Below, in pieces: positions 3,121 to 34,047 of a stretch of 34,047 nucleotides of DNA (its first letter is position 1; every line of letters starts with the position of its first letter). Source of the DNA: Nitrosopumilus sp. b3 (GTDB taxonomy: Archaea > Thermoproteota > Nitrososphaeria > Nitrososphaerales > Nitrosopumilaceae). Position numbers and translations under genes: made by a program. A model generated the notes under the pieces. The model searched no databases. It was not told where the DNA came from and saw nothing but the letters and a program-made list of their open reading frames with translations. The DNA lies in assembly GCF_014078525.1 (NCBI RefSeq), contig NZ_MU078699.1:1-34047 (forward strand). Reading direction: 5' to 3'.

Positions 3121-3222
3121 TTATTTTCTCTTTGCGGTAATTGCTAACCAGTAAATTAAACCTGGGGCTAAACCTACAATGAGTGGTATGAATACGGGCC
3201 ATCCGTCTGCTGCGCTTGCCAT
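3121..3222 (-). CDS. 33-residue single-span membrane peptide
   Basis: Small frame MASAADGWPVFIPLIVGLAP, then GLIYWLAITAKRK and a TAA stop. It has a short polar N-terminus, one hydrophobic span (residues 9-28) broken by prolines, and a basic TAKRK tail, so the N-terminus is probably outside. A TATA-like ATTTAAAT at about 3244-3254 on the minus strand lies 22-32 bases before the ATG, the same architecture as amoA, amoX and amoC here. That supports real, leaderless transcription. Respiratory and AMO complexes contain such tiny subunits, but I cannot assign a partner. It lies between the secreted-protein gene and tRNA-Ala. Confidence 0.7.
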   Translation of the reverse strand: MASAADGWPVFIPLIVGLAPGLIYWLAITAKRK

Positions 3223-3299
3223 GAAAAAAAACTCAAACTTATCCTATTTAAATCCATCCAGTAATCTGAAATTCAGCATAGATCGGTTTAGTCAAAAAG

Positions 3300-3373
3300 T
3301 GGACCGGACGGAATTTGAATCCGTGACCCCCCGCGTGCAAGGCGGGTATACTACCAGGCTATACTACCGGCCC
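3300..3373 (-). tRNA. tRNA-Ala (anticodon TGC)
   Basis: The minus strand folds into a 74-base cloverleaf. The acceptor arms are GGGCCGG and CCGGTCC with discriminator A at 3300. The anticodon loop contains TGC, and the T-loop is TTCAAAT. The third acceptor pair is G·U, the classic alanine identity element. No intron and no encoded CCA. Confidence 0.95.
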
Positions 3374-4123: not shown

Positions 4124-5059
4124 TCATTTTAGATTTTCATATGTTGTTTTTGACCATTGTAAAATATCATCAAGATGATCAGAAAGTAAATCAGATTGAA
4201 TTTTGGATTTTTTTGATGTTTTACCACATAATACTAATTTCATATTTTTCCCAGATTTTTCTTTAATCGGATTAATAGAATTGGCAAAAAAGTTTAATCC
4301 TTCATTTGAATGTGAAAATATTATCACTAGTAAGAGTCCAGGTTTTTGTTTCCAGATTTTTCCTACTAGTTTTTGAAAATCTAAATCAAATAAGACATCA
4401 ATTGCTGAAGACATATCACCTAGATGGAAAACCCTCCATCCATCTGAATGATATGCTGCAGAGGCAGCTTCAGAAATTAAGATACTCTGTGAATCAGCTG
4501 CAATTACAACTACATTTTTTTTTGGATCTGTTACTATCTGAATTTGATTGAATATTTGAAATGATTTTAAAATTGTAGTTTTTAACAGATTAAGTTCTGC
4601 TGTTCCAATTTTTCCTGCATCAAATAGATTTTGTATATGATCAACTGCAGGAAAGATTACTTCAAGAATCAAACGGTTAGCAGTTGCTCCAGAATGCAAG
4701 CAATTGCGAATTAAAGATTGGGCTTGTTCATCAGTACCTTTAATCAGATATTCAAGATAGGTTGGTGCCACTTTGAAATAATCATCAGGAAAATTGAAAG
4801 ATTCTTGACCGGGTTCTAAAAACCATAAAGTTACATTTCCTATATTTTTTTGTCGAAGCAATCCTTCAGCTGCAAAAACTTTGAGGTATTTTGACATTGT
4901 AATTCTATTAATTCCAATTTTTTTAGAAATCTCAACTCCCGACATTCCAGTATCAGAATTTTCTAAAGATGCAATCAGCTTTCCTCTAATTGATTCTGTT
5001 GAATAGCCCCTTCCCATGATATTTTTGGATGATGGTATTGTATAAACACTAATTTTCAA
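4124..5059 (-). CDS. HTH regulator with a degenerate cobalamin-binding-type sensor domain
   Basis: Residues of about 20-82 form a winged helix-turn-helix (GVEISKKIGINRITMSKYLK as recognition part, then a wing with VTLWF). Residues 98-170 match the four-helix B12-binding-2 cap (LIKGTDEQAQSLIRNCLHSG ... IFPAVDHIQNLFDAGKIG). Residues 183-300 form a Rossmann-like half matching the B12-binding domain (VVVIAADSQSILISEAASAA). The layout resembles CarH/LitR-type light or corrinoid sensors, but the DxHxxG cobalamin ligand motif is absent: the position reads DSQSIL, with no histidine. So it may sense another ligand or none. An in-frame ATG at 5017 (MGRGYSTESI) is an alternative start. It converges on tRNA-Ile. 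Confidence 0.75.
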   Translation of the reverse strand: MKISVYTIPSSKNIMGRGYSTESIRGKLIASLENSDTGMSGVEISKKIGINRITMSKYLKVFAAEGLLRQKNIGNVTLWFLEPGQESFNFPDDYFKVAPTYLEYLIKGTDEQAQSLIRNCLHSGATANRLILEVIFPAVDHIQNLFDAGKIGTAELNLLKTTILKSFQIFNQIQIVTDPKKNVVVIAADSQSILISEAASAAYHSDGWRVFHLGDMSSAIDVLFDLDFQKLVGKIWKQKPGLLLVIIFSHSNEGLNFFANSINPIKEKSGKNMKLVLCGKTSKKSKIQSDLLSDHLDDILQWSKTTYENLK

Positions 5060-7453: not shown

Positions 7454-7522
7454 TACCATTAGATATAGAGGGATATCTTTATAAGACTATTGTTTCTATA
7501 TACCAATAGATATCTAATGGTA
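7454..7522. promoter_or_regulatory. Operator cluster and bidirectional TATA box between RHH gene and transposase
   Basis: Three copies of a 13-base site are seen: TACCATTAGATAT at 7454-7466, TACCAATAGATAT at 7500-7512, and the first sequence inverted at 7510-7522. The last two overlap to make a near-perfect palindrome, 7500-7522, that covers the transposase ATG (7517). The first touches the RHH start. Between them, palindromic TTATAA (7478-7483) is placed 26 bases from the RHH ATG and 34 bases from the transposase ATG, so it could serve both directions. This is a textbook autorepressor arrangement; binding by the RHH protein is inferred. Confidence 0.7.
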
Positions 7523-8647
7523 ACAAAAGAATACATGACAAGAGAAGAAAGGGCACAAAGACTCCTAGACAATCCAAATACTCACATCCTGAGAATTAAC
7601 GACAACCATTACCAAATGAAAAGTTTGGCAACAAATAGAATCTATGAAATTTTCTCAACTGAGTTTGGATGGAAGTGTACTTGCCCTGATCATATTTATC
7701 GTAAAGTAACCTGCAAACATTCCCTAGCAATTCAAATCAGCATCAAACTAAGAGAAGAAGCAAGAACTAGAAACAAGATAGTGATCGAGGAAATTGGATG
7801 CGACAAGTGTCCATCATGCCACAGTACTGAAATTGTAAAGCACGGTATAAGACACAACAGAAACTATGATCTTCAAAGGTACTCATGTAAATCATGTAGG
7901 AAAAGATTTTCTTTCAATCTGGGCTTTGAGAAGATGAGAGTGACCCCGAAAGTCGTTACGTCCGCTATGCAACTATACTTTACTGGGGAATCTCTCAGAA
8001 ACGTTCAGAAGTTCATCAGGCTGCAAGGCGTGGATGTTGCCCATTCTACTGTCTACAAGTGGATAAAGAAGTATACTGAACTAATGAAAATTCACTTGGA
8101 CAGTATTACTCCACAAGTAGGTGACACATGGCGTGCAGATGAAGTCTACACAAAAATCAAGGGTGACAAAAAATACCTCTTTGCCCTTATGGATGATGAG
8201 ACTAGATTTTGGATAGCACAGGAAGTCGCAGATTCCAAGTTCAAGCATGACGCTAGAAATCTTTTGAGAATGGCAAAGGACTCTATGGATATGACTCCAC
8301 GAGTTTTCATTACTGACGGATTACAGGCTTATCGAGATGCCTTCAAAAAAGAGTACGGTGCAGTAAAGAAAGGAAGCCCTATCCATATCCGTCATATCTC
8401 ATTGAAAGGAGATAGAAACAACAACAAGATGGAGAGACTTAATGGTGAGTTTCGAGATAGAGAGAAAGTAATGAGAGGAGTAAAGAAAAAGGATTCTGTG
8501 ATTTTTGATGGTTCACAAATCTATCATAACTATGTAAGACCTCACATGAGTCTTGATGGTAAAACGCCTGCTGAGGCTTGTGGAATTGAGGTAAAAGGAA
8601 AAGACAAATGGATTACCTTAATTCAGAATGCAAAGAAGAATTTGTGA
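7517..8647 (+). CDS. IS6/IS240-type DDE transposase with SWIM zinc finger
   Basis: A 376-residue transposase with an unusual front end. A SWIM-type zinc finger (C54, C56, C66, H68 in KCTCPD ... TCKH) is followed by a zinc ribbon (C98, C101, C124, C127), an HTH-like region and an rve/IS240 DDE catalytic core. The acidic triad is D208 (WRADEVY), D267 (FITDGLQAY) and E306 (NKMERLNGEF). All parts are present, so the protein looks active. The frame opens with a TTG at 7490, but the ATG at 7517 is better placed relative to the TATA box. A decayed relative lies at 5638-5759. The RHH gene upstream probably controls it. Confidence 0.9.
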   Translation: MVTKEYMTREERAQRLLDNPNTHILRINDNHYQMKSLATNRIYEIFSTEFGWKCTCPDHIYRKVTCKHSLAIQISIKLREEARTRNKIVIEEIGCDKCPSCHSTEIVKHGIRHNRNYDLQRYSCKSCRKRFSFNLGFEKMRVTPKVVTSAMQLYFTGESLRNVQKFIRLQGVDVAHSTVYKWIKKYTELMKIHLDSITPQVGDTWRADEVYTKIKGDKKYLFALMDDETRFWIAQEVADSKFKHDARNLLRMAKDSMDMTPRVFITDGLQAYRDAFKKEYGAVKKGSPIHIRHISLKGDRNNNKMERLNGEFRDREKVMRGVKKKDSVIFDGSQIYHNYVRPHMSLDGKTPAEACGIEVKGKDKWITLIQNAKKNL

Positions 8648-11545: not shown

Positions 11546-12196
11546 TTAGTCCCACTTTGACCAAGCGGCCATCCATCTGTATGTCCAAGTGTTCAGTTTG
11601 ACACCTAATGCTGCCATTGTACAACCCAATACTGCACCTGCACCTGCACCGAGAGCAACTGGGCTGTTATAGAACTTCCCTACTTGCGGTTCGATTGGTG
11701 TCATATATGGTGGCAATGTTGGTCTTGGATATTTGAATGCCGTTTCTAGTGGGTCTGCTACTGTTATCAGGTTTACCATATTGAATAATGGTAATGACAT
11801 TCCTACTAGTACGCCGCCAAACAGTATCAAGGAGTGCTTGTTCTTCTTTGTTGCCCAGTATACTAAGTCCAACAGCATCGCTGATGGTAACCAAACTGGA
11901 GTAACAATGAAGTCATATGGATATCCTAGCGAAAACCATGCGGCTTTTGCTATCCATGTGTATACTGTCATAATTAGAGCGTAGTACGTTGCTGTGCCTG
12001 GAACGCCTGTAAATGTTAGATAATAACATGCACCTACAAGAAGCATCAACGTTTGCGATATTGAGAATACCGTATACGATGTCCAAGCCCAGTCAGTGTA
12101 GAAGATGTAGTCTCCTGCATTAATTGTTAACAGTGTTGAGTTAACTGCAACTACTACTATGAATAAGTAGTGTGTACATCGTCTTAACCAGACCAT
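11546..12196 (-). CDS. amoA: Ammonia monooxygenase subunit A
   Basis: A membrane subunit of the copper enzyme that oxidises ammonia to hydroxylamine, the first step of archaeal energy metabolism. At 216 residues it has the standard archaeal length. The N-terminus MVWLRRCTHYLFIVVVAVNS, the block GDYIFYTDWAWTSY and the C-terminus WTYRWMAAWSKWD are diagnostic of archaeal AmoA. Several hydrophobic spans cross the membrane. It is transcribed from its own TATA box (12219-12227) and ends at a pyrimidine-rich terminator shared with amoB. Gene order amoA-amoX-amoC on one strand with amoB nearby is that of group I.1a. A C-terminal stretch (LGCTMAALGVKLN) holds most of the visible variation. Confidence 0.99.
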   Translation of the reverse strand: MVWLRRCTHYLFIVVVAVNSTLLTINAGDYIFYTDWAWTSYTVFSISQTLMLLVGACYYLTFTGVPGTATYYALIMTVYTWIAKAAWFSLGYPYDFIVTPVWLPSAMLLDLVYWATKKNKHSLILFGGVLVGMSLPLFNMVNLITVADPLETAFKYPRPTLPPYMTPIEPQVGKFYNSPVALGAGAGAVLGCTMAALGVKLNTWTYRWMAAWSKWD

Positions 12197-12345: not shown

Positions 12346-12708
12346 TTACCAACCAACGTATAATGATACGAATAGTACGAAAGCTACAGAAGCAGCAATA
12401 CTGCCCGCAACTATACCATTACTATTTTTGTTGGAACCTTCTTCCATGACTTTAACACAGAAGATGTAACCTATTGCCTCAATGATTGCAAGTACGATGA
12501 ATGCAAAGTGACCACTTGCTGTTGGATATGCCCATGGATAATAGAAGTATCCTGCTGCAGTACCACCAAAAGTTGCTAACAGTGCTGCCCAATATGAAAT
12601 TGTAATCATACCAGTCATATTTTCAACGCGACGTCCAATCATTCGTTCTATATCAGCACTTGATGATCCACCAGTGCCGCCAGAACCGAATCCTTTAGGA
12701 AGAGTCAT
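12346..12708 (-). CDS. amoX: AmoX, small membrane subunit of archaeal AMO
   Basis: A 120-residue protein between amoA and amoC, the fixed place of amoX in group I.1a archaea. A Gly/Ser-rich cytosolic start (GFGSGGTGGSSSADIERMIG) is followed by three to four hydrophobic spans (ITISYWAALLATFGGTAAGY, HFAFIVLAIIEAIGYIFC, IAASVAFVLFVSLYVGW). AmoX has been reported to co-purify with archaeal AMO; its exact role is not settled. It has its own TATA box 25-33 bases upstream and its own hairpin terminator, so it can be expressed apart from amoA and amoC. Confidence 0.93.
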   Translation of the reverse strand: MTLPKGFGSGGTGGSSSADIERMIGRRVENMTGMITISYWAALLATFGGTAAGYFYYPWAYPTASGHFAFIVLAIIEAIGYIFCVKVMEEGSNKNSNGIVAGSIAASVAFVLFVSLYVGW

Positions 12709-12826: not shown

Positions 12827-13390
12827 CTATGGAATTGATCTGCTGTACAATTTGCCTTCTAAAGCCATCTTGTACATCTCTGCAACATATGGGTTCTCTC
12901 CAGGAGTTTCTGCACCTAGTTCAACGAGTCGAGCATATACTCTAACTACGTATGCAAGTGCACCCATGAATGCAACTACTACACCCATGTTAAACATCCA
13001 GTGATTTGGAACCGCAAATATTTCTTCTACAAACCAGAAGTGCCACATCTCATTGACCCCAATTGTAAACATAGTTGCAAGGTAACCAAGAATGGTCATC
13101 TTTAAACCAGTGTTCATTGAATTATTAGGACCTCTAAGAACTGGTACTTTTCTATCATAGATTGCTGCTGCACCCCATCCAAGTGGTAATGTGATGAAGT
13201 GGGAATACAACCACCAGTGTGCTGGTGTAAATGCACTATCTCTGATAGAAGTCTGATGTAGAGAACCATCAACGAAGTTATCTACTTCGACTGATGCTGC
13301 AGTGGATCCCATAGCAATAACGATGAGCCAGATTTTTTTAAGTCTCTGAATCTCAACTTCTTTTGGGATTAATGCGGGCATCTGTGCCAT
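12827..13390 (-). CDS. amoC: Ammonia monooxygenase subunit C
   Basis: A 187-residue membrane subunit of AMO. MAQMPALIPKEVEIQRLKKI is the standard archaeal N-terminus, followed by five or so hydrophobic spans. Conserved polar residues in the membrane region, D51, H58 and H64 in DSAFTPAHWWLYSHF, are the best candidates for the copper site known from the related PmoC; the exact ligands are inferred by analogy. The Lys/Arg-rich tail EMYKMALEGKLYSRSIP is cytosolic. It has its own TATA box and terminator. Divergent amoB begins 254 bases away. A lone extra amoC copy often exists elsewhere in these genomes; this one is the operon-linked copy. Confidence 0.98.
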   Translation of the reverse strand: MAQMPALIPKEVEIQRLKKIWLIVIAMGSTAASVEVDNFVDGSLHQTSIRDSAFTPAHWWLYSHFITLPLGWGAAAIYDRKVPVLRGPNNSMNTGLKMTILGYLATMFTIGVNEMWHFWFVEEIFAVPNHWMFNMGVVVAFMGALAYVVRVYARLVELGAETPGENPYVAEMYKMALEGKLYSRSIP

Positions 13391-13452: not shown

Positions 13453-13585
13453 ATTTTTTATATAAAAAATCATTAATTATGTAAAAATTATTTTTTCTTG
13501 AAAGTTATAATAGAATAATTATATGATTTTTTTATCATTTTTGATGTATAACATCAATGATTAACATTGAAGAAAGGATCGATCC
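13453..13585. promoter_or_regulatory. Palindrome cluster between divergent amoC and amoB
   Basis: The very AT-rich spacer holds four dyads: an 18-base perfect palindrome at 13453-13470 (ATTTTTTAT and its complement); TTGATGT/ACATCAA around ATA at 13541-13557; TCAATG/CATTGA around ATTAA at 13554-13570, overlapping the previous one; and GGATCGATCC at 13576-13585, which carries two GATC sites. They lie between the amoC promoter and the amoB start. They are good candidates for regulator binding or RNA structure in a long amoB leader. Confidence 0.5.
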
Positions 13586-13644
13586 TCGTGATTAAGGTAA
13601 AACATATAACGATGTCCTTTATTTCCTCAATATTAGGGATAACT

Positions 13645-14214
13645 ATGGTCGAAAAAAGAATTTTCGTATTTGGACTAGCTGTAGTACTTGCACTAGGAAC
13701 ATTAGGTTTCAACTGGGTTGAATCCATACTTCCAACTGCAGATGCACACGGTGTCCAAGCACAACTCCAGAGTCGTTTCATCAGAATTGAGGATGAAACC
13801 TTTAACAGACAATCCCTGCAAACTGGCGAGACCTTGATACTTCAAGGAACACTAGTCAGCCTTGTAGAAAGAGACCTTAGAGGATGGCTATCTATCTTCT
13901 CAGAGTCAACCAACGCAGGAAACAGATGGGAGATGTTAGCAAGAGATCCACCAGGAAACGTCTTTGACATTCCAGGTAACGCTATTGTTGATTATTCACT
14001 ATCTGCAAAAGCACTTGAAGCAGGTGTATACCACGTACACACCCAACTCAATGTAGCCAAAGTTGGTCCAGGACTCGGTCCAGGTCAAACAGTTGTCGTT
14101 GAAGGAGAACCAATTATCAAACCAATCCCATATACCAACATCGCATATCAATCAATTATCATAGGTGTTGGATATGTCATTACGTTTGCAACAAGACCCT
14201 GGCAAGTAATCTAA
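13645..14214 (+). CDS. amoB: Ammonia monooxygenase subunit B
   Basis: A 189-residue subunit, the usual archaeal length, much shorter than bacterial AmoB. The N-terminal hydrophobic segment (IFVFGLAVVLALGTLGFNWV) acts as signal. Cleavage after ADA would leave H35 (HGVQAQ) as the first residue. With H130 and H132 (GVYHVHTQL) it reproduces the three-histidine copper site of PmoB (H33, H137, H139). A cupredoxin-like domain faces outside, and a C-terminal helix (IIIGVGYVITFATRPW) anchors it. The frame extends upstream to a TTG at 13567 and an ATG at 13612, but homologous length and the signal peptide favour 13645. Reads away from amoC; no other gene shares its strand until 14311. Confidence 0.97.
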   Translation: MVEKRIFVFGLAVVLALGTLGFNWVESILPTADAHGVQAQLQSRFIRIEDETFNRQSLQTGETLILQGTLVSLVERDLRGWLSIFSESTNAGNRWEMLARDPPGNVFDIPGNAIVDYSLSAKALEAGVYHVHTQLNVAKVGPGLGPGQTVVVEGEPIIKPIPYTNIAYQSIIIGVGYVITFATRPWQVI

Positions 14215-14310: not shown

Positions 14311-14625
14311 ATGCTAAGTTTCAAAATAATCAAATTAGATATTTTTCAAAGTTATTTTTTTGGAGAAGTAGAGTTTCGTTCAGATAAATTCAAAGTTAAC
14401 ATACAGAATCAGAGAAGAGGAAAAGTACTCAAATTACCTTTTGAGATAAAGCCAAAAAATGAGAAAGTGATTGTTAGGATTACAGGTCCTGACGATTTGT
14501 ATGTAGAAGATTATCTCCCTTTCAAAGGAGAATCAGAATGGTTAGAGATAGACTCCGATGAAATAACGTATTCCCTAGCAGATCATCAAGATAGATTTGA
14601 CACAATTGAAATTATGTTAGAATAA
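14311..14625 (+). CDS. Conserved hypothetical soluble protein (104 aa)
   Basis: A 104-residue, charged, probably beta-rich protein without signal peptide, membrane span or cysteine. Segments such as KVIVRITGPDDLYVEDYLPF suggest a small beta-sandwich or barrel. I do not recognise it. It follows amoB after a terminator and precedes a membrane protein by 38 bases, so the two may be co-transcribed. Its constant closeness to amo genes in related genomes would have to be tested before linking it to ammonia oxidation. Confidence 0.72.
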   Translation: MLSFKIIKLDIFQSYFFGEVEFRSDKFKVNIQNQRRGKVLKLPFEIKPKNEKVIVRITGPDDLYVEDYLPFKGESEWLEIDSDEITYSLADHQDRFDTIEIMLE

Positions 14626-14663: not shown

Positions 14664-15188
14664 ATGAAATATCCTGGTATGGGGGATCCTTACAAAAGAA
14701 ACAAGACAATAAAATTTCTCATAATAAGTGCCATCGTAGGAGGTATCGCAGTTTTACTTACTAGTTTGATAGTCAACCCCTTGATAGGAGAACAAGCACA
14801 TAATGCTTGTATTGACGATTTAGATACGGATTGGAAAATATCATTTACATTTGAAATGATTGTGGATGGTCAGAAAGCAGAAGTTCAACCAAATATTGGA
14901 ATAACAGAAGATTGTCAAAGAGCAATCTACACACTTTCTAATGACGGTACAGTATATGCTGAATGGACAGAAAACCCCAATTTTGAAATCGGGCATTTCT
15001 TATACATTTCTAAGTTCAAAATTAGAGATATGGAAGAATCAAAAACAGAAATTTATGTAAATGACAGATTATCAGAGAATGGTCTAAAAACACCAATACA
15101 GGACAAGTATCATTACAAAGCAGTGTTTACTTCAAAGGATTATGATTCATCTAAAGACAAAGACTTCCTACCAGAACTAGAAAAATAA
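14664..15188 (+). CDS. Hypothetical protein with one N-terminal membrane anchor
   Basis: Residues 1-18 are basic (MKYPGMGDPYKRNKTIKF), 19-42 form one membrane span (LIISAIVGGIAVLLTSLIVN), and the remaining 130 residues look extracytoplasmic and beta-rich. Two cysteines (in HNACIDDLD and TEDCQRA) could form a disulfide outside the membrane. The acidic C-terminus ends DFLPELEK. No family recognised. It follows the 104-residue gene closely on the same strand. Confidence 0.75.
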   Translation: MKYPGMGDPYKRNKTIKFLIISAIVGGIAVLLTSLIVNPLIGEQAHNACIDDLDTDWKISFTFEMIVDGQKAEVQPNIGITEDCQRAIYTLSNDGTVYAEWTENPNFEIGHFLYISKFKIRDMEESKTEIYVNDRLSENGLKTPIQDKYHYKAVFTSKDYDSSKDKDFLPELEK

Positions 15189-15278: not shown

Positions 15279-15548
15279 TTACCAGTATTTACCGTTGTCT
15301 GGAATCAGACCAATGCCTTCTCTTTCAAAGTGTCTGTCCAACTCATCGACCCATCTCTCACGGTTGTCTTTGTAAGCCCATCCGTGTACACGTAACCAGA
15401 ATGAGATAATTCCAAGAAGGAATACTGTGAACATCATGGTTCCGAAGATGTAAATCATTACATCATAGAATAATGGATCATAGTTTGGTCCCAGTTGTCC
15501 TGTAAGTGAAGACAGGATGCTTAGGAAAGTTCCTACGATAGGAGTCAT
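15279..15548 (-). CDS. 89-residue single-span membrane protein, candidate AMO accessory subunit
   Basis: MTPIVGTFLSILSSLTGQLG is followed by one long hydrophobic span (about residues 28-54, DVMIYIFGTMMFTVFLLGII) and a conserved-looking charged tail rich in Trp and Arg (RVHGWAYKDNRERWVDELDR). The frame opens at 15581, but TATA-like GTATATATC (15579-15571) is 23-31 bases before the ATG at 15548, the geometry of the amo genes, so 15548 is chosen. The 3' region holds a pyrimidine tract with CTTTTCATT like those after amoA, amoB and amoX. Extra subunits AmoY and AmoZ have been reported for archaeal AMO; this is a candidate, not proven. Confidence 0.8.
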   Translation of the reverse strand: MTPIVGTFLSILSSLTGQLGPNYDPLFYDVMIYIFGTMMFTVFLLGIISFWLRVHGWAYKDNRERWVDELDRHFEREGIGLIPDNGKYW

Positions 15549-15599
15549 GATAATTTGGCTCAATTTGTGCGATATATACATTTCTTTTATTATCAGAAA

Positions 15600-15658: not shown

Positions 15659-15991
15659 TTATCCTCTGCCCATTGCTGCGTATTTGCCAGATCTTCCTCT
15701 AATGAAGAATGCTCCTGCAATACCACCGAATACTGCACCTGCAATTACTGAGGCACCAACTACACCACTTGCATCAAGATATGGAGTTCCTGAACCAGAG
15801 GCTGGATTTGCTTCAGCAGCTTCAATTCTTCTTCTTTGAATTTCAAGTGCTTCCTCTAAAGTGTATGATCCGGTTTCACCTTCACTACCAACGTTTCCCA
15901 TGTATTGTGCAAATGCTATTGCATCTTCTGCATAGAATCCCATAGTGAAGACAGCAACTAAGGATGCTGCTAATAGTATTTTTGTATTCAT
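15659..15991 (-). CDS. 110-residue exported/membrane protein, candidate AMO accessory subunit
   Basis: N-terminal signal (MNTKILLAASLVAVFTMGFY, cleavage near AFA-QYMG), a charged amphipathic helix (LEEALEIQRRRIEAAEANP), then one small-residue-rich membrane span (ASVIAGAVFGGIAGAFFIRG) and a short basic end. The gene stands directly upstream of the 89-residue membrane gene on the same strand, with a 110-base gap and a separate promoter (TTAAATAA at about 16024-16031). Its Gly/Ala-rich span suits packing against other helices. Candidate AmoY/AmoZ-type subunit from position and topology only; S-layer or other envelope roles remain possible. Confidence 0.78.
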   Translation of the reverse strand: MNTKILLAASLVAVFTMGFYAEDAIAFAQYMGNVGSEGETGSYTLEEALEIQRRRIEAAEANPASGSGTPYLDASGVVGASVIAGAVFGGIAGAFFIRGRSGKYAAMGRG

Positions 15992-31199: not shown

Positions 31200-33371
31200 T
31201 TAGTAATCAGGGCAGCCATCTGTATCTCTGTCACCATCATAATCCTCAGGATCTAGAGGACAAAGGTCTTCATCATTGATTATATCATCAAGATCATCAT
31301 CATGGACAAATCTCTGTTGTTCAGGAGCAATATCTGGACAGCCATCATGATCATTGTATTTGTTCCATGTTTCAGGGTCAGTTGGGCATGAATCAATTCC
31401 ATCATGATATCCATCACCGTCTGAATCTACTCTTGTTGGAGTTGTTGATTGGGCAGCCAAAACATCAGGACATCCATCCCAGTCCAAGTATCCATTAAAG
31501 TTCTCCTGCTCATCAATACATGCGTCTTTTCTATCATCTATTCCATCACCATCAGTATCTGGGAAGGCAAACGATGAAACACTTGAACCAGTAGCATCAG
31601 GGCAACCGTCCTCATCTTGATAATGGTTGTATGTTTCAGGTTCTAGGGGACATGCATCAGATAAATCAATAATTCCATCTCTATCAGAATCAAGAGTGGA
31701 ATGATGGTTATCAGGGCAACCGTCTTTGTCTTGGAATCCATTGAAGGTTTCTGGTTGGTTAGGACAAGAATCTATGTTGTCAACAATTCCATCACCATCT
31801 GAATCAGCTGTTGGTTTATTATCAGAAATTAAATCAGGGCAACCGTCTGAGTCTTGGAAATGATTGTAAGTTTCTCTAGATTGAGGACATTGATCAATGT
31901 TATCAGGTATTCCATCTCTATCAGAATCTCCAAAGGAATCATAAGCTAAAGTATCAGGGCAACCGTCCTCATCTTGAAATTGATTATATCTTTCTCCAAT
32001 TGTTGGGCATTGATCAAATATGTCAGGTATTCCATCGTAATCAAGATCAGATAATGCAGATTTTGAAAATCCTGGGATATCGGGGCAGCCGTCTTTGTCT
32101 AGATAATCATTAAAGTTTTCAGGCTCATCAATACACGAATCCCATCTATCTTCAATTCCATCACCATCAGTATCTGGGAAAATATAGGATGAAACAATAG
32201 ACGTAGTTGTGTCAGGGCAGCCATCACCATCTTTGAAGAAATTGTACGTTTCAGGTTCTAGTGGACAAGCATCTAAAGTATTTGGAATACCATCCATATC
32301 AGAATCAAGAGTAGAGTTTAGGTTATCTGGGCAACCGTCTGAATCCAGAACTCCATTGTAAGTTTCAGGTTGGTTAGGACAATGATCTAAATTGTCAACA
32401 ATTCCATCACCGTCTGAATCATAGGTAGAAGCACTATCTCCAACAAAGTCAGGACAACCATCAGAGTCTTGGAATTTATTGTAAGTTTCTTTGTTATATG
32501 GACAAACATCAAATTGATTTAAAATTCCATCCCCATCTGTATCACCAGAAATGGAATATTCAACTTCGTCAGGACATCCGTCTTCATCTTGAAAGTTATT
32601 GAAATTTTCACGATCTAACGGACATGCATCTACAGAGTCAAGAATACTATCATAATCAGAATCAATTAATCCATTAGATGATGCACCAAGTACATCGGAG
32701 CAGCCATCCCAGTCTAGATAACCATTATAGTTTTCTGGTTGGTTTAGGCATTGATCCCATCTATCATCTATTCCATCACCGTCAGTATCTGGAAAATTAT
32801 ATACTGAAAACTCATCATCTACAACATCTGGGCAACCGTCTTGATCTAAGTAAAAATTGTAAGTTTCAGATTTCATTGGACACTCATCTAATGAATCAGA
32901 AATACCATCTCTATCAGTATCTCTCAAACTAGAAGCATCATCTGGGCAACCGTCTTTATCATCAATTCCATTAAAAGTTTCAGGTTGGTTTGGACAAGAA
33001 TCCATATAATCTGGATAACCATCATTATCAGAATCAGCTATCACTTTTCCAAAATCAGGAGATAAATCAGGACAGCCATCTTCATCTTGGAATTTGTTGT
33101 AAGTTTCTTTTACTGTTGGGCAGCTATCTATATGATCTTGAATGCCATCATAATCAACATCATACCATGGAACAAAATCAGCAGGGCAACCGTCAATATT
33201 GTTTCCATACTGTGGATCATAATCTTCTAAAAGATGAGGACAAAAATCAACAGAGTTTGGAACTCCATCACCATCAGTATCAATTTGTTCATTTGCATAA
33301 ACACCACCAGGTAACATCCCAATCGTAGAAGTTAGTAAAAGTAAAAATCCTAAAATATACTGTTTTTTCAT
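31200..33371 (-). CDS. Secreted calcium-binding-type TSP3 repeat protein (723 aa)
   Basis: A signal peptide (MKKQYILGFLLLLTSTIGML, cleavage near VYA) is followed by 17 thrombospondin type-3-like units, each with DxDxDGxxD and DGCPD and two Cys, so a string of Ca-binding, disulfide-linked loops outside the cell. Units form larger modules: FPDTDGDG-type motifs at residues 193, 398 and 603 repeat every 205 residues. The C-terminus (QQRFVHDDDLDDIINDEDLC then PLDPEDYDGDRDTDGCPDY) is almost the same as in the neighbouring paralogue. No anchor or catalytic domain is seen; a role in cell-surface adhesion or structure is likely. Reads towards the dus gene on the same strand. Confidence 0.92.
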   Translation of the reverse strand: MKKQYILGFLLLLTSTIGMLPGGVYANEQIDTDGDGVPNSVDFCPHLLEDYDPQYGNNIDGCPADFVPWYDVDYDGIQDHIDSCPTVKETYNKFQDEDGCPDLSPDFGKVIADSDNDGYPDYMDSCPNQPETFNGIDDKDGCPDDASSLRDTDRDGISDSLDECPMKSETYNFYLDQDGCPDVVDDEFSVYNFPDTDGDGIDDRWDQCLNQPENYNGYLDWDGCSDVLGASSNGLIDSDYDSILDSVDACPLDRENFNNFQDEDGCPDEVEYSISGDTDGDGILNQFDVCPYNKETYNKFQDSDGCPDFVGDSASTYDSDGDGIVDNLDHCPNQPETYNGVLDSDGCPDNLNSTLDSDMDGIPNTLDACPLEPETYNFFKDGDGCPDTTTSIVSSYIFPDTDGDGIEDRWDSCIDEPENFNDYLDKDGCPDIPGFSKSALSDLDYDGIPDIFDQCPTIGERYNQFQDEDGCPDTLAYDSFGDSDRDGIPDNIDQCPQSRETYNHFQDSDGCPDLISDNKPTADSDGDGIVDNIDSCPNQPETFNGFQDKDGCPDNHHSTLDSDRDGIIDLSDACPLEPETYNHYQDEDGCPDATGSSVSSFAFPDTDGDGIDDRKDACIDEQENFNGYLDWDGCPDVLAAQSTTPTRVDSDGDGYHDGIDSCPTDPETWNKYNDHDGCPDIAPEQQRFVHDDDLDDIINDEDLCPLDPEDYDGDRDTDGCPDY

Positions 33372-33455: not shown

Positions 33456-34047
33456 CTATGGATCTGGGCAACCGTCTTCATCTCTGTCACCATCATAATC
33501 CTCTGGATCTTTAGGGCAGAGATCTTCGTCGTTGATTATATCATCAAGATCGTCATCATGAACAAATCTCTGTTGTTCAGGAACAATATCAGGGCAACCA
33601 TCCCAGTCTAGATACTTGTTCCATGTTTCAGGCTCAGTTGGACAAGAATCAATTACATCTGGGTATCCATCACCGTCAGAATCAGCATAAACAGGTGTTG
33701 TTGATTCAGCGCCAGGAACATCTGGGCAACCGTCTTTGTCTAAATAATCATTATAATTTTCAGGCTCATCAATACATGAATCCCATCTATCTTCAATTCC
33801 ATCACCATCAGAATCTGGGAATTGATATTGGAATGTAGTTGAATCAGCAGTATCTGGGCATCCGTCTAGATCTTGGAATTTATTATAAGTTTCAGGTTGT
33901 AATGGACAATCGTCATAGACATCTGGAATTCCATCCATGTCAGAATCTAATGAAGAATTAAGACTGTCAGGACATCCGTCTTTGTCTTGGAATCCATTGT
34001 AAGTTTCAGGTTGGTTAGGACAAGAATCTAAGTTGTCAATAATTCCA
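33456..34047 (-). CDS. Second TSP3 repeat protein, 5' part cut by the window edge
   Basis: The frame is open to the right edge (an internal ATG at 33938 is not the true start, since TSP3 units continue upstream of it: DNLDSCPNQPETYNGFQDKD then GCPDSLN). Five units are visible, one with the FPDSDGDGIEDRWDSC type found in the paralogue's 205-residue modules. The C-terminus QQRFVHDDDLDDIINDEDLC then PKDPEDYDGDRDEDGCPDP nearly equals that of the neighbour at 31200. This is a tandem duplicate; the start and signal peptide must lie beyond the window. Confidence 0.9.
   Translation of the reverse strand, partial: GIIDNLDSCPNQPETYNGFQDKDGCPDSLNSSLDSDMDGIPDVYDDCPLQPETYNKFQDLDGCPDTADSTTFQYQFPDSDGDGIEDRWDSCIDEPENYNDYLDKDGCPDVPGAESTTPVYADSDGDGYPDVIDSCPTEPETWNKYLDWDGCPDIVPEQQRFVHDDDLDDIINDEDLCPKDPEDYDGDRDEDGCPDP

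Follow-up and report, generated by a model that had tools for sequence, protein, structure and literature searches.

A conserved one-helix mini-protein of ammonia-oxidizing archaea as a candidate seventh subunit of archaeal ammonia monooxygenase

The question raised by this locus is whether a very short open reading frame (ORF), found on the same DNA as the amo genes of Nitrosopumilus sp. b3, represents a gene and, if so, to which machinery its product belongs. In the window, as the whole analysed stretch of 34,047 nucleotides is called here, a 33-codon ORF was confirmed exactly where it had been predicted, at 3121-3222, and it is located on the minus strand (3222..3121), starting with ATG, ending with a TAA stop and encoding MASAADGWPVFIPLIVGLAPGLIYWLAITAKRK. 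Based on the ORF itself, its conservation, its pN/pS ratio and its helix, we propose that it could encode a seventh subunit of archaeal ammonia monooxygenase (AMO), the enzyme with which nitrification begins across much of the ocean and soil and whose composition was revised as late as 2023.

In regard to the coding nature of the ORF, loss of the frame in close relatives had been named as the outcome that would speak against a gene, but the frame was instead found to be kept across about 200 Nitrosopumilaceae genomes. Among 76 distinct copies from this family, pN/pS equals 0.19 in the peptide frame, while in the same copies four of the other five frames have values of 1.65-2.07 and one antisense frame has 0.34. 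Minor-allele frequencies at codon positions 1, 2 and 3 of these copies are 0.068, 0.057 and 0.247, respectively. Because of the low pN/pS, this codon-position pattern and the conservation of both the start and the promoter, the 33-residue ORF is a real gene under purifying selection. That the ORF is fortuitous, or the stretch a non-coding element such as a part of the tRNA-Ala transcription unit, could be suspected from the position of the gene, which starts 76 bp 3′ of tRNA-Ala (TGC; 3299..3373, minus strand), an upstream neighbour outside the proposed system, with the TATA box in between; in most Nitrosopumilus-like genomes tRNA-Ala is likewise upstream of the gene and close to it. However, this explanation is refuted by the coding signature, homologues in other families lie in other contexts, and the promoter persists in four genomes where no tRNA was detected upstream (L115, L117, L144, L153), leaving its probability practically negligible.

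The original prediction that the gene has its own TATA box, spaced as in amoA, amoX and amoC, was borne out. The box (TTTAAATA, 3252..3245, minus strand) ends 23 nt before the ATG and lies within a 12-base TATA/BRE promoter, TGGATTTAAATA (3245..3256, minus strand; positions -34 to -23), which keeps its spacing to the ATG across 76 distinct upstream regions, with every base conserved to 90% or more. TATA-like boxes at similar start distances precede amoA (TTTTATATA), amoX (TTTAAAAG) and amoC (CTTTATATT) in the window, and the peptide homologues of all families have such a box roughly 20-35 nt before the ATG. Judging from archaeal TATA-to-start distances, transcription would initiate at or just before the ATG, and the mRNA probably has no leader or at most a very short one. 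The gene would be monocistronic, transcribed from this promoter near its ATG.

TBLASTN across Nitrososphaerota had been suggested together with the prediction, and the distribution of the peptide was followed by profile searches. A profile built from Nitrosopumilaceae only (A1) was searched against 80 genomes from 16 other families within the order. These were also screened for amoA, 23 being amoA-positive (families f2, f3 and f8) and 57 amoA-negative. Four families of ammonia oxidizers were thus sampled, namely Nitrosopumilaceae, the Nitrosocaldus-like f2, f3 and the Nitrososphaeraceae-type f8. All 23 amoA-positive genomes of the three families outside Nitrosopumilaceae were matched, 19 with E-values from 3e-8 to 4e-5, one with 5.5e-4, and three more weakly (0.004-0.02). 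When the weak f3 cases were rechecked with an f3-free profile (A3), both f3 genomes were matched (1.8e-7 and 1.4e-5), the best value in 20 amoA-negative controls being 0.0055. The profile searches gave no credible match in any of the 56 amoA-negative genomes outside Nitrososphaeraceae, and the sole strong match among all 57 came from a 95%-complete f8 draft (G107), from which amoA is probably missing through assembly. A class-wide run of a broad profile returned the same distribution, with E-values for f2, f3 and f8 that are partly circular. Within Nitrosopumilaceae, 20 peptide-less genomes were looked at; amoA is missing from eight of them as well, and in those whose contigs were read, the sequence stops short of the expected site, for example at tRNA-Ile. 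The peptide is therefore present throughout the ammonia-oxidizing archaea (AOA) sampled, its gaps in Nitrosopumilaceae corresponding to a missing amoA or a contig end, and with the exception of the single draft it is absent from the sampled relatives that do not oxidize ammonia. While amoC occurs in marine viruses, no viral copies of the peptide gene were found in IMG/VR.

In the window, the peptide gene is located 8.3 kb downstream of amoA (11546..12196, minus strand), on the same strand. The remaining amo genes follow as amoX (12346..12708) and amoC (12827..13390) on the minus strand, amoB (13567..14214) on the plus strand, with its true start probably downstream of the TTG at 13567, and amoY (15279..15581, start probably at the internal ATG at 15548) and amoZ (15659..15991) on the minus strand. 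Among 24 well-assembled Nitrosopumilaceae genomes from nine genera, 23 have the peptide gene on the strand of amoA and 3.6-9.6 kb downstream of it, the exception being a 2.05 Mb genome (G186) in which the two genes are far apart; this linkage is moderate evidence only, because the intervening genes are also syntenic. Adjacency to amoA in the two families with a compact amo cluster, f2 and f3, is the strong part of the linkage evidence. There, the order is amoZ-amoY-amoB-amoC-amoX-amoA followed by the peptide homologue. In one f2 genome (G001), the cluster is preceded by rpS15 and the homologue is found 192 bp past amoA on the opposite strand; in an f3 genome with the same amo order (G019) it is 363 bp past amoA, and in another f3 genome (G002) a transposase and a methyltransferase are placed between the two. 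In a second f2 genus (G047), 0.6 kb and one small gene separate the homologue from amoA. Synteny with amoABC, which an archaeal AMO subunit shows in Nitrosocaldaceae and Nitrosopumilaceae, was thus found in f2 and f3 as well as in Nitrosopumilaceae. In Nitrososphaeraceae the peptide gene is unlinked to amoA, and most amo genes of this family are reported as unlinked in the 2023 complexome study (PMC10030591).

The single-span pattern originally predicted for the peptide agrees with its hydrophobicity maximum (Kyte-Doolittle mean of +2.2 over 19 residues, from residue 10), its K/R-rich tail and an AlphaFold2 model consisting of one helix (residues 4-32, mean pLDDT 82.8), so that both hydrophobicity and modelling give it the membrane helix expected of an archaeal AMO subunit. 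None of the 26 sequences compared from the four families departs from P13, L14, G17, L18 and G21, and Y24 is nearly invariant; all 26 representatives also have GxxxG at positions 17/21 and two to four K/R among the last seven residues. Common to all versions are one helix, a K/R tail and P-L-x-x-G-L-x-x-G, which includes the GxxxG packing motif. A permutation test gave no significant clustering of the conserved positions on a single face of the helix (p = 0.14). The f2 and f3 homologues are longer, 66-82 aa, and on inspection carry an N-terminal signal-like stretch ending in AYA-Q or FAQ, followed by the same helix, while Nitrososphaeraceae versions have 39-46 residues. This signal-like stretch suggests an N-out, C-in topology, and, according to the positive-inside rule and the signal peptides of deep-branching homologues, the peptide would be inserted as one helix with a short N-terminus outside and the K/R tail in the cytoplasm. 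The ancestor could have had a cleaved signal peptide, retained in both compact-cluster lineages including the Nitrosocaldus-like one, with the Nitrosopumilaceae and Nitrososphaeraceae versions being reduced to the helix alone.

Phylogenetic profile and gene order tie this genuine membrane mini-protein, universal among AOA, to AMO. The original prediction that such mini-proteins are often subunits of respiratory or monooxygenase complexes was upheld for the monooxygenase, as the gene tracks amoA and adjoins it in compact clusters, AMO membership itself being what we infer from this. On the respiratory side, COX1, used as the terminal-oxidase control, was found in 60 of the 80 genomes, with most of the peptide-less, amoA-negative families among them, and a mini-subunit of a terminal oxidase was therefore rejected. 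From the sequence comparisons, it appears rather probable that the peptide is a universal single-span seventh subunit of archaeal AMO, in addition to AmoA, B, C, X, Y and Z. It may well be, furthermore, that AMO is a seven-subunit enzyme in which a universal one-helix subunit (about 33-46 mature residues), so small and hydrophobic that it was overlooked, fills out the membrane domain and has belonged to AMO since the last common ancestor of AOA. In such an arrangement, the peptide would use G17-xxx-G21 together with L14/G17/G21/Y24 to pack onto a partner helix in the AMO protomer and could stabilise or complete the membrane part of the enzyme, where archaeal AmoB and AmoC are without some of the helices of bacterial copper membrane monooxygenases (CuMMOs). 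The 2023 study (PMC10030591) describes archaeal AmoB and AmoC as missing helices found in bacteria, with X, Y and Z raising the archaeal protomer to about 14 helices, versus 14-15 in bacterial pMMO; the peptide would add one more. If this is true, a missing universal subunit would explain incomplete AMO models, and reconstitution or heterologous expression of AMO would need the peptide included. It also offers a concrete, falsifiable candidate for an additional helix in any map of AMO.

As to why such a subunit could have been overlooked, six AMO subunits were reported in the 2023 complexome study, which identified them by annotated conservation across all AOA and by mass spectrometry, and the peptide gene is unnamed in the passages covered (PMC10030591). 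The gene is probably unannotated, and trypsin leaves one hydrophobic fragment of about 31 residues from the 33-aa peptide. An ORF of this size yielding one such fragment would suit both criteria poorly, which would explain its absence from the list.

Several other roles have to be weighed against that of a structural subunit. The main rival is a factor dedicated to AMO assembly, insertion or metallation, binding only transiently and acting in the manner of PmoD/AmoD without being homologous to them. The phylogenetic profile and gene order fit such a factor equally well, and the peptide gene is read from a promoter of its own, in convergent orientation to amoA in G001 (f2) and G019 (f3). On the other hand, its conserved core has no His/Cys/Met metal-binding pattern, it has no soluble domain, and its conservation (85% in L145 and L153) is within the range of structural subunits and more typical of a stoichiometric part, making an assembly factor possible but unlikely. 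AOA have further exclusive genes in common, and the profile by itself therefore does not distinguish AMO from other machinery of ammonia oxidation. The peptide could also belong, as a small subunit, to a different membrane complex specific to AOA (e.g., the AOA-type cytochrome b/plastocyanin, the hydroxylamine-oxidising step or the ammonium transporter) which tracks amoA by coincidence. The exclusive AOA gene set indeed extends beyond AMO, and components of complex I, complex IV and Amt are described as co-migrating with AMO in native gels in PMC10030591, but the adjacency to amoA in two compact-cluster families argues against such a complex and the presence of COX1 in most peptide-less genomes disfavours a general terminal-oxidase subunit; we regard this possibility as doubtful.

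A regulator or stress micro-protein would also match the peptide in size and single-span topology, which are typical of one-helix modulators in general, and could act on the AMO membrane as a non-constitutive element. Retention in all ammonia oxidizers over very deep divergences, with a strong invariant core, makes such a modulator highly improbable.

Among known systems, CydX, CcoQ and other mini-subunits of respiratory oxidases have one short transmembrane helix, fall below gene-finder limits and have a helix-packing role. The peptide resembles CydX and CcoQ in its single short helix and tiny ORF, but homology to them was not detected and it follows amoA rather than COX1. PsaM (photosystem I subunit XII) is also a one-helix protein, of about 32 residues and with P-G-L, and was the best match among solved structures when the single peptide was used (E 0.023); with the family profile the match is insignificant (E 0.54), a phylogenetic connection is lacking, and we read this weak relationship as convergence. 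PmoD/AmoD, the accessory copper proteins of bacterial CuMMOs, are likewise small, membrane-anchored and encoded near CuMMO genes, and they are accessory proteins rather than structural subunits (PMC6189053, PMC10030591); PmoD has a copper-binding soluble domain, whereas the peptide has neither a soluble domain nor a metal motif. A further parallel is provided by AmoX, AmoY and AmoZ, which are small membrane-helix proteins exclusive to AOA as well (PMC10030591), located in the compact cluster in compact-cluster lineages and scattered in Nitrososphaeraceae. They are among the AMO subunits reported in 2023, while the peptide is not, as far as the passages covered extend (Hodgskiss et al. 2023, PMC10030591). 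No sequence relation to them was found, and in Nitrosopumilaceae the peptide is about one-third their size. The possibility that it is AmoX, AmoY or AmoZ in disguise was rejected, as each of these maps to its own gene, apart from the homologue, in the f2/f3 clusters.

Scans against Pfam and NCBIfam matched no model, and a PDB search returned only PsaM/PetL-like and unrelated chance matches, with no solved relative of the peptide; no relative of archaeal AmoA or AmoX was found among PDB sequences either, and no solved structure of archaeal AMO came up there. No mention of the peptide was found in the open-access literature searched on added AMO subunits, microproteins, AMO structures and extra CuMMO helices; a prior description in preprints or subscription journals is possible.

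Several other features were observed around the amo genes. A winged-helix regulator with a C-terminal domain that by eye resembles B12-binding ones is encoded at 4124-5059 (minus strand), 6.5 kb from amoA, and homologues with 26-27% identity are found near the f2 amo cluster (L083, 12566-13417; L084, 67-864), so the amo-linked regulator may be ancient. A transposase gene (7490-8647, plus strand) interrupts the interval from amoA to the peptide gene, and a related element (39% identity) is found between the same two genes in L086 (2099-3226), which suggests repeated insertion there. Two conserved ORFs (14311-14625 and 14664-15188, plus strand), one of them with a membrane segment at its N-terminus, lie between amoB and amoY in most of the Nitrosopumilaceae that were compared and were not found in the f2/f3 clusters. 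In both f2 genera, a membrane-anchored protein of 119-137 aa adjoins the homologue and amoA (L083, 6809-7222; L085, 6424-6783; both plus strand), representing another candidate AMO-associated gene, seen in f2 only. Finally, long proteins built of repeated calcium-binding-type DTDGDG(I/Y) units, thrombospondin-3-like by eye, are encoded at 31200-33371 and 33456-33938 on the minus strand of the window.
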